Shown here: piece by piece, positions 9,935-27,851 of the stretch
How the letters are laid out: the number at the start of each line of letters is the position of its first letter
How positions within the stretch are numbered: the first letter of the stretch is position 1
Source: Ignavibacteriales bacterium
Lineage (GTDB): Bacteria; Bacteroidota; Ignavibacteria; UBA10030
Length of the DNA stretch: 64,000 nucleotides
NCBI GenBank assembly: GCA_026390595.1
Contig: JAPLFQ010000019.1
Span: 105,860 to 169,859, forward strand
Direction of reading: 5' to 3'
The notes under the pieces: generated by a model
The model's input: the letters and a program-made list of their open reading frames with translations, nothing else
What the model was told of the DNA's origin: nothing
Databases searched by the model: none
Made by a program: the position numbers and the translations under genes

Positions 9935-10258
9935 ATGGCAGACGAAAACAATGAAGGAATGGCGAAAGGCTTGATCGTCGGCTTTATCGCAGGCAGCGTT
10001 GTTGGTGCCGTGATGGCACTTCTGTATGCACCGAAGAGCGGGAAAGAGCTGCGCCGCGACATCAAGGAAAAGACTGGTGAACTCGTCGACAAGGGCGAGG
10101 AATACCTCGCGAAGGCCCGGTCGAAGGCATCGGAAATCATGACCGAGGCAAAAAAAAAGTCTGACTCCCTGATCACGGATGCCCGGAAGCAGGCCAACAG
10201 TCTTATGGGGGATGCGGAGAGAATTCTCACCGACGCCCGCAGCAAGAAGGGGGAGTAG
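9935..10258 (+). CDS. YtxH domain-containing envelope protein
   Basis: This 107-residue protein has an N-terminal glycine-rich hydrophobic segment (GLIVGFIAGSVVGAVMALL), then the YtxH signature YAPKSGKELR and a long charged amphipathic helix rich in Lys, Glu and Ala. YtxH-domain proteins are small membrane-anchored stress-associated proteins of unclear mechanism. ACGGAGGATC precedes the ATG. Together with the DUF948-like gene downstream it resembles the common YtxH/DUF948 pairing in bacteria, which supports both calls. Confidence 0.85.
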   Translation: MADENNEGMAKGLIVGFIAGSVVGAVMALLYAPKSGKELRRDIKEKTGELVDKGEEYLAKARSKASEIMTEAKKKSDSLITDARKQANSLMGDAERILTDARSKKGE

Positions 10259-10280
10259 CCGGACAAAGCTCTGTAATGTT

Positions 10281-22925: not shown

Positions 22926-24413
22926 ATGGCTCATCTCCTCGAAGTCAGGCAGATCTCCAAGAGCTTTGGATCAACCCAGGCGCTTCGCCGCGCGTCCTTC
23001 ACGCTGGCTGCCGGTGAAATCCATGCACTCGTCGGAGAAAACGGAGCCGGCAAATCCACCTTGATGAAGATCCTCTCCGGTGTCCACCAGAAGGAAGAAG
23101 GGCAGATTCTCCTTGACGGGAGAGAGGTGAATCCGCAGTCCCCGCAGGAGGCGAGGAGCCTCGGCGTTGGGACTGTGTTTCAGGAGCTGAGCCTCTGCAA
23201 CAACCTCTCCGTGGCCGAGAACATTTTCGCGAACCGTGAGCCGGGATCATTCGGCCTCGTCAATCACCGGCTTCTGAACAAGCTCAGCGATGATCATCTC
23301 CGCGAATTTTCTTTTTCGATACCCGCTGACACCCTCGTCGGCGAACTGAATCTCGCCAGGAAACAGGTCGTCGAGGTTCTGAAAGCGATCGCTCTCAGAG
23401 CCAAAATCCTGATCCTCGATGAACCGACCTCCGCACTCGAACGCAGTGATGTCGAGCGCCTCTTCGAGCTTCTTGCCCGGCTGAAGGACCAGGGCACTGG
23501 GATCATTTTCATCTCCCATAAACTCGATGAAGTGTTTCGCATCGGGGACAGAATCACCGTCTTCCGCGATGGCGAACATATCGTGACCCTGAACAGCGGC
23601 GATACTAATCGGGATGCGATCATCCAATACATGGTGGGCAGAGAAATCCACCAGATCTATCCGCCGAAAGGCGATGGGACGGGAAGAAAGAGACTTCAGG
23701 TAACGGACTTCTGTCTCCGGGACACGTTCAACGGCATTACGTTTGATGTCCGGGAGGGCGAAGTGCTCGGAGTCGCCGGATTGACAGGCTCCGGCCGCAG
23801 CGAAGTAATGCAATCGATTTTCGCGTATCGGCAGAAGGACTCAGGAACGATCGACCTGGAAGAAATACCCCTCGATCTTGACGCCCCGTCGACGGCAATT
23901 GAGCGGGGCATAGTCTACTCGCCGGAGGACAGGAAAGAGCAGGGGCTCTTCCTGAGCCATAGCGTCGCAATGAACATCACCTCAGCATGCCTTGAAGAAT
24001 GCAGCACGTCGATCCTACTCTCGCCGGCAAAAGTATCTGGCGTCGCATCAAGGATGGTGAAGGATTTGGCGATCAAGGTCAACTCCATCGATCAGGAGGT
24101 CGGGTCGCTGAGCGGGGGCAATCAGCAGAAGGTTCTTCTTGCGAAGTGCCTGGCGTGCAAACCAAAGGTGCTGATTGTGGACGAGCCGACACGCGGAATT
24201 GATATCGGCTCGAAGATTGAGATCTACGCTCTTCTCCGGGAGTTCACCTCACGTGGCGGATCTGTCATCCTGGTTTCGTCTGAGCTGCAGGAGGTCATCG
24301 GGTTGAGCGATCGTGTGATAGTCTTCAAAGATGGAAGAATCGTGGGGGAACTAAAATCAGATCTCACCGAACAGAGCCTCATGGAATTGATGTTTCACCG
24401 CACTGCACGCTAA
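22926..24413 (+). CDS. Sugar ABC transporter ATPase, tandem-domain (RbsA/AraG type)
   Basis: The start was set at the ATG giving MAHLLEVRQISKSFGS, because the upstream extension is Cys-rich junk and the 495-residue result matches the family. The first nucleotide-binding domain has Walker A GENGAGKST from residue 37 and Walker B ILILDEPTSAL. The second has the usual degenerate P-loop GLTGSGRSE, a signature LSGGNQQK and LIVDEPTRGIDIGS. The gene ends MFHRTAR. A second copy of the coding DNA for MFHRTA lies 280 bp downstream, where an insertion separates it from the permease gene. It powers import of a monosaccharide, here most likely L-arabinose. Confidence 0.92.
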   Translation: MAHLLEVRQISKSFGSTQALRRASFTLAAGEIHALVGENGAGKSTLMKILSGVHQKEEGQILLDGREVNPQSPQEARSLGVGTVFQELSLCNNLSVAENIFANREPGSFGLVNHRLLNKLSDDHLREFSFSIPADTLVGELNLARKQVVEVLKAIALRAKILILDEPTSALERSDVERLFELLARLKDQGTGIIFISHKLDEVFRIGDRITVFRDGEHIVTLNSGDTNRDAIIQYMVGREIHQIYPPKGDGTGRKRLQVTDFCLRDTFNGITFDVREGEVLGVAGLTGSGRSEVMQSIFAYRQKDSGTIDLEEIPLDLDAPSTAIERGIVYSPEDRKEQGLFLSHSVAMNITSACLEECSTSILLSPAKVSGVASRMVKDLAIKVNSIDQEVGSLSGGNQQKVLLAKCLACKPKVLIVDEPTRGIDIGSKIEIYALLREFTSRGGSVILVSSELQEVIGLSDRVIVFKDGRIVGELKSDLTEQSLMELMFHRTAR

Positions 24414-24427
24414 CGGCGCGCCTGCTG

Positions 24428-24490
24428 TTCTTCGACAGCCCGCCTGCCCCAAAAAGCATGGTTTGGCGGGCAGGTTGCACTGTCGAAGAA
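24428..24490. repeat. Large hairpin within the insertion
   Basis: Arms TTCTTCGACAG (24428-24438) and CTGTCGAAGAA (24480-24490) are perfectly complementary. Inner segments CCGCCTGCCCCAAA and TTTGGCGGGCAGG extend the pairing imperfectly. Confidence 0.7.
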
Positions 24491-24498
24491 GGCCCATG

Positions 24499-24515
24499 CT
24501 GGAGTTAAACTCCAG
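24499..24515. repeat. Palindrome with AGTNNAACT core, copy 1
   Basis: CTGGAGTTAAACTCCAG, arms of 7-8 bp self-complementary around the core AGTTAAACT. Confidence 0.7.
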
Positions 24516-24605
24516 GAGTTCTAATGAGGTTGTCGAGTGGCCGTTCGCGGCGCAATCATGTGCGCAAATGTTGTGCTTGAAAAGAACGAAGCACCATGCA
24601 AGATC

Positions 24606-24622
24606 CGAGAGTAAAACTCTCG
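24606..24622. repeat. Palindrome with AGTNNAACT core, copy 2
   Basis: CGAGAGTAAAACTCTCG, 7-bp arms around AAA; the core reads AGTAAAACT. Arm bases differ from copy 1 but remain complementary. Confidence 0.7.
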
Positions 24623-24633
24623 CTTGATTCGAG

Positions 24634-24654
24634 TCCGACAGTCCAACTGTCGGA
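24634..24654. repeat. Palindrome with AGTNNAACT core, copy 3
   Basis: A 21-bp palindrome with arms TCCGACAGT and ACTGTCGGA around CCA; the core reads AGTCCAACT. It lies 12 bp after copy 2. Confidence 0.7.
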
Positions 24655-24705
24655 CAGCCGGGAGAAAAAATGTTACACCGCACTGCACAAGAACGACCAT
24701 AGACT

Positions 24706-26694
24706 ATGAAAAGAATCCTGAAGATTCGGGAGTTTGTCATCCTGCTTGCGGTGATCGTGACCGCCCTCGTGTTTTATGCGGCGCAGCCGGGTGAAGGTAA
24801 CCGTTTTCTCTCGCTGTCAAATCTCGAAGCCGTGCTGATGGGGATCTCGCTTGACGGGCTGATTGCCATAGGGATGACGTTTGTCATTATCACGGGAGGT
24901 TTCGATCTCTCTGTCGGCTCGACGTTTGCGTTCGGCGGCCTGATCGTCGGGGTGCTGCTGCAGAGCGGCTTTTCGACGCCGGTCGCCTTCTTCGGGGCAA
25001 TACTCGCCGGGTGTGCTGTCGGTCTGTTCAACGGATTCTTCATCACGAAAGTCAAGGTCAATCCATTTGTCACGACGCTTGGTTCGATGACGATCGTACG
25101 CGGAATTGTCCTTGTTGCCACACAGGGAAACTCCATCACCGGCTTTCCGTCCGGATTCCTCGCCATCGGCCAAGAGAAGCTGTTCGGAGTCTTCCTGCCG
25201 ATCCTGATCATGCTCGTGTTCCTTGTTCTCTCCGACTTCCTGCTGAGAAAATCGCGATTTCTGCGCAAGACATACTACATCGGGGGCAACGAAGAAGCGG
25301 CCCGCCTTTCCGGAATCGATGTCGATAACCTCAAAGTCTGGATGTATGTCATCACCGGGGCACTCTCCGCCTTTGCCGGGGTCATCGCGACCGCGAAAAC
25401 CGGAGCGACATCGCCGGTGGCAGGGACCGGTGCAGAGCTGCGGATTATTGCTGCTGTCGTGGTCGGCGGCGCCAGCCTCTCTGGCGGGCGGGGAACAATC
25501 TTTGGTACATTCCTCGGGCTGATGCTCACAAGCATCATCACCAACGGTTTGGGGTTCCTCCGCATTTCTTTCTATGCGGAAGGAATCGTATCCGGCACAA
25601 TCCTCATCATCGCTGTCATGCTCGATCAACTGACACGAGAACGCATACGGCTATTCATTCGCTTTCTGACAACCACAAGGAACAAACGCATGGAACGAGC
25701 AATCAATGTTGCCCTGGCTTGCATCGTGGTGTTGCTGTTTGTTTTCAGGCCCTGGGGATCTGTTTCAACGACCACTGAAAGCAAGAAAGCTGCGTCGAGC
25801 AACGAAGAGTACGTGTTCATCGGCGTTTCCGTCGGGAATCCGTACTGGGTTGACGCGCGGCTGGGGATGGAAGACAAAGCGAAAATGCTGGGGGTCAAAT
25901 CCGAATTGCGCGGCCCTACCGGCAACGATCCGAATCAGCAGGTGAAGGAGTTCGAACAACTCATCGCCCGCCGGCCGGCCGGAATCCTTATTGCGCCTGC
26001 ATCGAACGTCATGACGCCAAGCATCAATCGCGCCATCGATCTTGGAATCCCGGTCATCTGCATCGATACGGATGACCCGAACAGCAAGCGCTACGCGTAC
26101 ATCGGAACGGACAACTACAATGCGGGCCGGCAGACCGGATTGATGCTTGCGCGTGCGATTGGGGGAAAAGGAGAGGTCGCGCTGCTCATGATCCCTGGGC
26201 AGCTGAATCACGAAGAGCGGGCACGCGGGTGCAAGGAAGTCCTCGCGACATATCCCGATATCAGGATCGTGAAGATCGGCAATGACCAGGCCCTTGCGAC
26301 AGAAGCAGAAAAGGTTGCCCGTTCGATATTGCAGGCCTATCCAAACCTCGCCGGATTTGGCTGTGTCAACGCGGCCGGGGGAGAAGGGTGCGCCGTCGCC
26401 GTGAAGGAAGCCGGAAAGGTCGGAAAGGTGAAGATCATCGCTATGGACCGGAACGAAACGACGCTCGAGTTCATCGAGCAGGGCATTATCGAAGCCTCGA
26501 TTGCACAGCGAACGTACACGATGGCATATATGGGCCTCGAGCTACTCTACGATCTTAATCACAACAACATGCAACTCGTCAACAACTGGAGGGAAGCTAA
26601 AATCATCCCTCTCCCGCGGAGCATCGATACCGGTACGATTGTGATCGACAAAACGAATGTGAGTGCGTTTCGGCGAAGCGGGAAGAACATGTGA
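24706..26694 (+). CDS. Sugar ABC permease fused to its periplasmic binding protein (RbsC-RbsB type)
   Basis: The 662-residue protein joins two usually separate subunits. Residues 1 to about 320 are an RbsC-type permease with many membrane segments, including GGFDLSVGSTFAFGGL, LGSMTIVRGI and VVVGGASLSGGRGTIFGT. An extra membrane segment at about 333-348 (NVALACIVVLLFVFRP) is followed by a periplasmic-binding-protein domain to the C-terminus: FIGVSVGNPYW, GNDPNQQVKEFEQLIARRPAGILI, and DTDDPNSKRYAYIGTDN. The binding protein would therefore stay tethered to the pore. It partners with the ATPase upstream. L-arabinose is the inferred substrate from araB/araD nearby; ribose, galactose or oligosaccharides are alternatives. 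Confidence 0.9.
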   Translation: MKRILKIREFVILLAVIVTALVFYAAQPGEGNRFLSLSNLEAVLMGISLDGLIAIGMTFVIITGGFDLSVGSTFAFGGLIVGVLLQSGFSTPVAFFGAILAGCAVGLFNGFFITKVKVNPFVTTLGSMTIVRGIVLVATQGNSITGFPSGFLAIGQEKLFGVFLPILIMLVFLVLSDFLLRKSRFLRKTYYIGGNEEAARLSGIDVDNLKVWMYVITGALSAFAGVIATAKTGATSPVAGTGAELRIIAAVVVGGASLSGGRGTIFGTFLGLMLTSIITNGLGFLRISFYAEGIVSGTILIIAVMLDQLTRERIRLFIRFLTTTRNKRMERAINVALACIVVLLFVFRPWGSVSTTTESKKAASSNEEYVFIGVSVGNPYWVDARLGMEDKAKMLGVKSELRGPTGNDPNQQVKEFEQLIARRPAGILIAPASNVMTPSINRAIDLGIPVICIDTDDPNSKRYAYIGTDNYNAGRQTGLMLARAIGGKGEVALLMIPGQLNHEERARGCKEVLATYPDIRIVKIGNDQALATEAEKVARSILQAYPNLAGFGCVNAAGGEGCAVAVKEAGKVGKVKIIAMDRNETTLEFIEQGIIEASIAQRTYTMAYMGLELLYDLNHNNMQLVNNWREAKIIPLPRSIDTGTIVIDKTNVSAFRRSGKNM

Positions 26695-26741: not shown

Positions 26742-27851
26742 TTGCCATCGATAAAAGACATAGCCGCCCGCGCACAGGTTTCCATCGGTACCGTCGATCG
26801 CGTTCTCCACAACAGGGGACGTGTCTCTGCGGAAACCAAGGCACGCGTCGAGCAGATCATCCGAAAGCTCGGCTACCGGCCGAATATCCATGCCCGCAAT
26901 CTGTCCCTCGATAAGGCGTATAGGTTCGGCATCGTGCTTCCCCGGCTTTCGCAGGACAGCGGGTATTGGAACATACCGATGATGGGAATCGAGAGGGCCG
27001 GACGCGAACTGCAAGTATACAAGGTGCACCTGCGTTCACACTACTTCGACCGGTATTCCGAACGATCATTCGAACGCGCCCTTCGCGACGCGCTGGGGGC
27101 GAAACCCGACGGACTGCTCATCGCTCCGGTCCTTCCGCAAATCGCGCAAAAGCTCATACCTGCGATTCCGGGAGGAATTCCGTTTGTCTTCATCGATTCT
27201 ATGATTCCGGGAACGGAGTGCCTCTCGTTCATCGGCCAGGACCCTTACCAGAGCGGTCTTCTGGCAGCGGGGTTGATGCTTAAGTCGGTGCGGAACGGCA
27301 GGTCGGTTGCGATTGTCAAGGTTATGCCTGAGGATTTCCACATCACGGAAAGAATTCGCGGGTTTCTCTCAGGTCTGCGCGACAGTCCCCAGCAAGGGGC
27401 GCGAGTGTATGAGGTTGACAGCCATAAGGGCGAGAAGGCGTTCGCCGGAGTTGTTGAGCTCATGCTGCGGGAGAACAAGAACCTGGGCGGCGTGTTTGTT
27501 TCGAACGCCTGGACACACTCAGTTGCTCGGCTGGTCAATGCACTCCCGGACCGGGAAAGAGTCTCCCTCATCGGTTACGACCTCGTCGAGAAGAATCTCA
27601 GAGCGCTCGAAAGAAACGCCGTTGACTTCTTGATCAGTCAAAGACCCGAAATGCAGGGGTACGAAGGAGTCTACTGTCTGTACGAACACGTGGTTCTCCG
27701 TGAGCCTGTCAAGCGAAAGATCATGGTTCCCATCGACATCCTCACAAGAGACAACGTCCAATACTATCAGGATTACACACGCGAGGAATTATGGACACCA
27801 AGCGTTTCGTCATCGGAGTTGACTACGGGACTGATTCAGTCCGCACTCTGA
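26742..27851 (+). CDS. LacI-family transcriptional regulator of the arabinose locus
   Basis: The N-terminus is a LacI helix-turn-helix, SIKDIAARAQVSIGTVDRVL, followed by the hinge region and a periplasmic-binding-protein-like sensor domain with DGLLIAPV and FIDSMIPG. The start is TTG with no visible Shine-Dalgarno, directly after a heptamer array. The 3' end overlaps araB by 61 nt, and the last 18 or so residues look like run-on beyond a normal LacI C-terminus. It is embedded between transporter and catabolic genes, so it likely senses arabinose or a phosphorylated product and represses or activates this locus. Confidence 0.87.
   Translation: MPSIKDIAARAQVSIGTVDRVLHNRGRVSAETKARVEQIIRKLGYRPNIHARNLSLDKAYRFGIVLPRLSQDSGYWNIPMMGIERAGRELQVYKVHLRSHYFDRYSERSFERALRDALGAKPDGLLIAPVLPQIAQKLIPAIPGGIPFVFIDSMIPGTECLSFIGQDPYQSGLLAAGLMLKSVRNGRSVAIVKVMPEDFHITERIRGFLSGLRDSPQQGARVYEVDSHKGEKAFAGVVELMLRENKNLGGVFVSNAWTHSVARLVNALPDRERVSLIGYDLVEKNLRALERNAVDFLISQRPEMQGYEGVYCLYEHVVLREPVKRKIMVPIDILTRDNVQYYQDYTREELWTPSVSSSELTTGLIQSAL

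Follow-up and report, generated by a model that had tools for sequence, protein, structure and literature searches.

Known REP-related systems and the present locus

Canonical REP, REPIN and BIME sequences, as found in E. coli, Pseudomonas and Stenotrophomonas, are short extragenic palindromes occurring as inverted pairs, in which arm changes between families are complementary and each REP family is associated with one REP-associated tyrosine transposase (RAYT). They bear a 5' GT[AG]G tetranucleotide at the foot of the hairpin, beside which the cognate RAYT cuts the single strand. Di Nocera et al. (2013, PMC3733652) described another arrangement, the TIRYTs or TIRtrons, in which a RAYT-like gene stands between 'double palindromic TIRs'. 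For TnpAREP subclass 2.6, equivalent to RAYT group 5, the available portion of Quentin et al. (2018, PMC6006769) describes hairpins that are weaker, were found by hand and are called 'atypical secondary structures'. Loop bases are known to matter for some TnpAREPs, and the enzymes of IS608 and ISDra2 contact a loop T (PMC8266576).

The locus described here resembles each of these systems in part. Its palindromes are short, extragenic, multicopy and arranged in inverted pairs, with complementary arm changes and one RAYT, as in canonical REPs; its long terminal inverted repeats, each holding a pair of self-complementary tracts of which some recur across the genome, recall the TIRYTs (PMC3733652); and its subterminal single-strand hairpins, together with a Y1 HUH enzyme, recall the IS200/IS605 elements IS608 and ISDra2, whose enzyme touches the loop T (PMC8266576). 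The differences are equally distinct. Unlike canonical REPs, the hairpins lack GT[AG]G at the foot and conserve the tip instead, two of them stand at each end, and the whole forms a defined unit of ~190-230 bp. In contrast to IS200/IS605 elements, the enzyme is a RAYT, and many non-autonomous copies accompany one enzyme gene. The GGGGWSAS motif of TIRYTs was not seen on inspection of an alignment of 13 hairpin doublets, and 20 of 26 TIRYTs fall in subclass 2.1, which is described as carrying C-terminal HTH domains, for which the 179-aa protein found here leaves little room. Taken with the evidence below, the palindromes very probably form the structured termini of a REP-like element that is non-autonomous and presumably spread by the genome's own RAYT.

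A four-hairpin element in a transporter operon

The window, that is, the whole stretch of 64,000 nucleotides analysed (C19:105860-169859), belongs to a genome of 36 contigs and 4.77 Mb. Within it, a four-hairpin element spanning 24428-24655, roughly 230 bp, separates two genes of a sugar-ABC-transporter operon, and the initial annotation had singled out three palindromes of this element. All three are present, at 24499-24515, at 24606-24622 and around 24634-24654, and constitute hairpins B, C and D of the element; the fourth, hairpin A, had escaped notice. Hairpin A (outer left, 24428-24490, plus strand, as are all features below unless stated otherwise) reads TTCTTCGACAG...CTGTCGAAGAA, its apex being split by a GC-rich hairpin nested in the loop (24439-24474, CCCGCCTGCC..GGCGGGCAGG), and copies of hairpin A that lack the nested hairpin occur elsewhere (TTCTTCGACAGTNNACTGTCGAAGAA). 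A linker, GGCCCATG (24491-24498), which is conserved in other copies, leads to hairpin B (inner left, 24499-24515), CTGGAGTTAAACTCCAG, with the composition CTGGAGT-TAA-ACTCCAG. The spacer between B and C (24516-24605) is conserved in length, and comparison of spacer copies revealed no conserved fold within it, only B, C and a weak 4-bp helix. Hairpin C (inner right, 24606-24622) is CGAGAGTAAAACTCTCG, or CGAGAGT-AAA-ACTCTCG, and hairpin D (outer right, 24633-24655) is GTCCGACAGTCCAACTGTCGGAC, or GTCCGACAGT-CCA-ACTGTCGGAC, with a length of 23 bp, of which the 21 bp originally reported form the inner part.

The left terminal repeat, doublet A+B (24427-24515, plus strand; 57.7 bits, E 2e-15), and the right terminal repeat, the inverted doublet D'+C' (24606-24658, minus strand; 71.3 bits, E 1.8e-19), both match one 53-nt covariance model, R1, whose E-values are rough; the element therefore has at either end an imperfect terminal inverted repeat of 53 bp that comprises two hairpins. 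In the surroundings, a periplasmic binding protein and a sugar ABC permease are apparently fused in a single open frame at 24706-26694, and the genes around it, judging from their translations, appear to form an arabinose-type operon with a LacI-type regulator, an FGGY kinase and an epimerase-like gene.

The shared core of the palindromes had been given as AGT-NNA-ACT. AGT and ACT are indeed fixed, but on the plus strand the loop reads NNA in C and D and TNN in A and B; on the inward-facing strands of the element the first loop base is mostly T, and the stems of 7-12 bp carry a tip AGY-TNN-RCT. The suggested covariation of the arms is borne out when the four hairpin classes, or different species, are compared, the changes there being complementary, but hardly within class B or class C, in which the arms scarcely vary, so that the changes represent few independent events. 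The alignment of 13 doublets contains 98.2% standard pairs, with four pairs altered on both sides; since these doublets had been chosen by pairing, the check was repeated with copies located by spacer sequence alone. Among 25 such copies, at least six of seven pairs were retained in 24 for hairpin B and in 23 for hairpin C, and one compensatory change, from CTGG/CCAG to CCGG/CCGG, was included, these being counts of related copies and not of independent events.

Sites of the form AGT-NNN-ACT with at least four further arm pairs are confined, in the window, to the three palindromes. The genome scan against shuffled sequence that had been proposed revealed enrichment: 634 kb of contiguous DNA from the same genome contained seven such sites, whereas 20 dinucleotide shuffles yielded 0-2 (about 0.5 on average), in agreement with the earlier judgement that the pattern is not due to chance. 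By short-arm count the inner triplet GAT is equally common (8 sites), but the arms of the GAT sites are unrelated. Chance palindromes, in whose favour only the shortness of the B and C stems can be cited, are hardly credible in view of these counts, and the same holds for an assembly artefact, as copies are present in independent assemblies of other species.

Genomic copies, the RAYT gene and related genomes

A BLAST search with the element returned 47 matches in the genome, and model R1 returned 52 at E<1e-3, many of which are the two strands of one palindromic site. B and C lie at a fixed spacing in 18 places, with a spacer of the same family in 17 of the 18 and, in most, with A and D outside. 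Three types of copy can be distinguished: the full element, with hairpin centres at 0/30/137/167 and, in non-autonomous form, a length of about 190-230 bp; a short A-D pair, 32 bp from centre to centre; and one array, at C22:81.9-83.7 kb, which encloses a RAYT gene. The elements are extragenic, 8 of 57 lying inside long open frames compared with 804 of 1140 random stretches. The short A-D pairs would represent a REPIN-like minimal form. At what is apparently the same site, G005 carries a full element (L079, 5469-5600) and G000 two tandem short A-D pairs (L175, 3325-3543), a comparison which hints that short pairs arise in place from full copies. The idea that the spacer is an internally deleted form of the RAYT element found no clear support, the likeness being limited to the first few bases beside B and C.

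In many copies, the tip of hairpin A or D is occupied precisely by a hairpin of a second, GC-rich family (CCCGCC..GGCGGGCAGG). Examples are the window copy, L187 (~3291), L198 (~2140), L199 (~3315) and the right flank of L171, and the family is also found upstream of the RAYT at L212. At L171, L187, L198 and L199 more hairpins are nested inside the GC-rich one, to three or more levels, and these hairpin loops appear to be preferred sites for the insertion of other small palindromes.

A regular target-site duplication is absent, most of 56 elements having no direct repeat; flanking direct repeats exceed the null at 6-8 of the 56, with lengths of about 18-80 bp and no constant value. The window copy is flanked by a direct repeat of 19-26 bp, the left copy of which (ATGTTTCACCGCACTGCAC, 24390-24408) lies within the 3' end of the ABC ATPase gene and the right copy (ATGTTACACCGCACTGCAC) at 24670-24688. 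Other elements flanked by direct repeats are those at L006 (around 10203-10262), L077, L180, L182 and L186.

The search for a REP-type (Y1 HUH) transposase that had been suggested identified one, a protein of 179 aa encoded in the C22 array, on a contig other than that of the window, between the A-B and C-D copies of the same hairpins. It scores 106.4 bits against NF047646 (cut-off 80) and above the cut-off for Y1_Tnp, and the HUH pair H60-x-H62 and Y140 are invariant among its relatives. A fold model built from an 84%-identical relative (pLDDT 92.6) has as its best solved match 4ER8, the E. coli TnpAREP-REP complex. The features by which a RAYT is defined are all present, namely a Y1 HUH domain with His-x-His and Tyr, a RAYT-type sequence, and flanking inverted palindromes that recur in the genome. 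The genome encodes a single such gene, and the original guess of a hairpin substrate for a REP-type Y1 HUH enzyme gains support from the genome-wide pattern and from the position of this gene between the same hairpins.

A Y1 enzyme and non-autonomous copies with inverted repeats at their ends would also fit remnants of an ordinary IS200/IS605-type insertion sequence or a MITE mobilised by a different transposase, and the genome holds eight other Y1_Tnp genes. This reading is very unlikely, because no AGT hairpins were found in the flanks of the eight other Y1_Tnp genes, the enclosed gene scores as a REP-associated transposase, and the one RAYT gene occupies the same chromosomal locus in G000, G004 and G005, which points to vertical inheritance, unlike that of an IS.

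The compared genomes are metagenome bins, and the named relatives are bins of Bacteroidetes and Ignavibacteria, including isolate UBA10030. In G004 and G005, of the same genus, 37 and 76 doublet matches were found, together with RAYTs that are 80-84% identical; the RAYT is enclosed by A-B and C-D in G000, G004 and G005, and similarly in L208, L209 and L222. Among 61 related genomes, doublets are present in 8 of the 10 with a close RAYT versus 11 of the 51 others (Fisher p=8e-4). In G020, G025 and G059, with 16, 4 and 12 doublet matches, no RAYT was detected, although MAGs are incomplete; a lost gene, an incomplete bin or another enzyme supplying the function are possible explanations. Neither doublets nor a RAYT were found in G002 and G003, also of the same genus, and their transporter junction corresponding to that of the window is a short intergenic stretch without the element. 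This empty site constitutes the only direct insertion polymorphism, and a search for more, comparing G004 and G005 copies with G000, turned up in most cases either an insertion present in both genomes or flanks that had diverged.

The orthologous operons of G002 and G003, which dispense with the hairpins, bear on two regulatory interpretations. According to one, the palindromes are RNA elements that control the transporter operon as terminators, attenuators or mRNA-stability hairpins, their link to a transposase being incidental; the position between two operon genes, the stable fold of the single strand (z -5.9) and the ability of canonical REPs to act as RNA elements (PMC3733652) would be in keeping with this. 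It is nonetheless unlikely, given the operons without hairpins, the lack of a T-run after the hairpins, and copies scattered over unrelated loci and beside the RAYT gene. The structured RNA envisaged at the outset likewise found no support, as no Rfam family matches, and no tRNA is present at the locus. A secondary effect of the element on the mRNA is possible. According to the other, the palindromes are operators for the LacI-type regulator encoded just downstream (26742-27851). LacI-type operators are palindromic, and a LacI-family-like gene does belong to the same sugar operon, but the arms of A/D, B and C differ, the same combination of hairpins turns up at dozens of loci as well as around the transposase, and the orthologous operons do without it, leaving this interpretation next to no credence. 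The ends of a presumably mobile REP-like element remain the preferred reading.

Hairpin tips and RAYT lineages

Hairpins that flank other RAYTs of the clade have varying arms but a constant tip, AGT-NNN-ACT or, through a complementary exchange, AGC-NNN-GCT, and arms differ between RAYT lineages. On a tree of 41 RAYTs, the AGY-NNN-RCT type lies on one side and requires one change, compared with a mean of 12.9 for shuffled assignments, the support of the AGY-side branch being moderate (76/59). In other RAYT clades, from the same order and from other phyla, hairpins of the types TTCCCAnGC-TCY, GTCAGGAC-NNNN, GAA-TCCT and GGTC-TCCT were observed (L136-L138, L140-L145, L147-L149, L153-L155, L213, L219, L224, L228 and L230), each of which clusters on the RAYT tree.

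The first loop base is T in 15 of 21 hairpins nearest upstream of a RAYT and in 5 of 24 nearest downstream (p=0.001), a bias and not an absolute rule, which is consistent with strand-specific reading. At the hairpin foot, GT[AG]G occurs within 8 nt in 1 of 250 hairpin strands, and the tag of CGTC-tagged REPs, CGTC, likewise in 1 of 250.

The motifs reported for subclass 2.6 in the available portion of PMC6006769, NH[LIV]H, WQ and YIH[QN]NP in a protein of about 179 aa, are matched by NHVH, WQ and YIHNNP in the RAYT of 179 aa, and the HuH-Y distance, which is comparatively large in that subclass, amounts to 77 residues between H62 and Y140, compared with a published median of 82. The absence of GT[AG]G from the flanking hairpins, their additional genomic copies and hosts of Bacteroidetes type also agree with that description. 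On the strength of the motifs, the length and the missing GTAG, the RAYT would fit subclass 2.6 (RAYT group 5), a placement made by the published motif table and not by a joint tree. Unlike the hairpins described in that portion of the source, those found here have strong stems, a defined tip and an arrangement of doublets as terminal inverted repeats; some AGY hairpins may already be listed in its Table S1.

The system is probably a REP/RAYT variant in which recognition of the tip (AGY and the first loop T) replaces that of the GTAG foot. The further proposal, that the specificity of the RAYT has moved from the GTAG foot to the tip, with AGY-TNN-RCT read on one strand and the arm sequence ignored, stands evenly balanced between acceptance and doubt. 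As single-stranded DNA, each inverted repeat of ~53 bp would give one outer hairpin and one inner hairpin, with AGT-TNN-ACT as the tip on the strand that faces inward. Under such a mechanism the RAYT, acting in trans, would recognise the hairpin tip with its AGY and first loop T on one strand, and would cut and join the element ends during replication, the element being moved, by analogy with IS200/IS605 relatives, most likely from the lagging-strand template. If the tip is what is recognised, any arms would be tolerated provided that they are complementary.

If this is true, one element can combine four hairpins with dissimilar arms, the arms can change freely from species to species, and the 'atypical' REPs of subclass 2.6 would obey one simple grammar. 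The question raised is whether a REP transposase can recognise its substrate by the tip alone, without a GTAG guide, as single-strand IS transposases partly do. The rule that hairpins match the RAYT lineage would also make subclass 2.6 REP-like sequences machine-searchable in genomes of Bacteroidota and Ignavibacteria.
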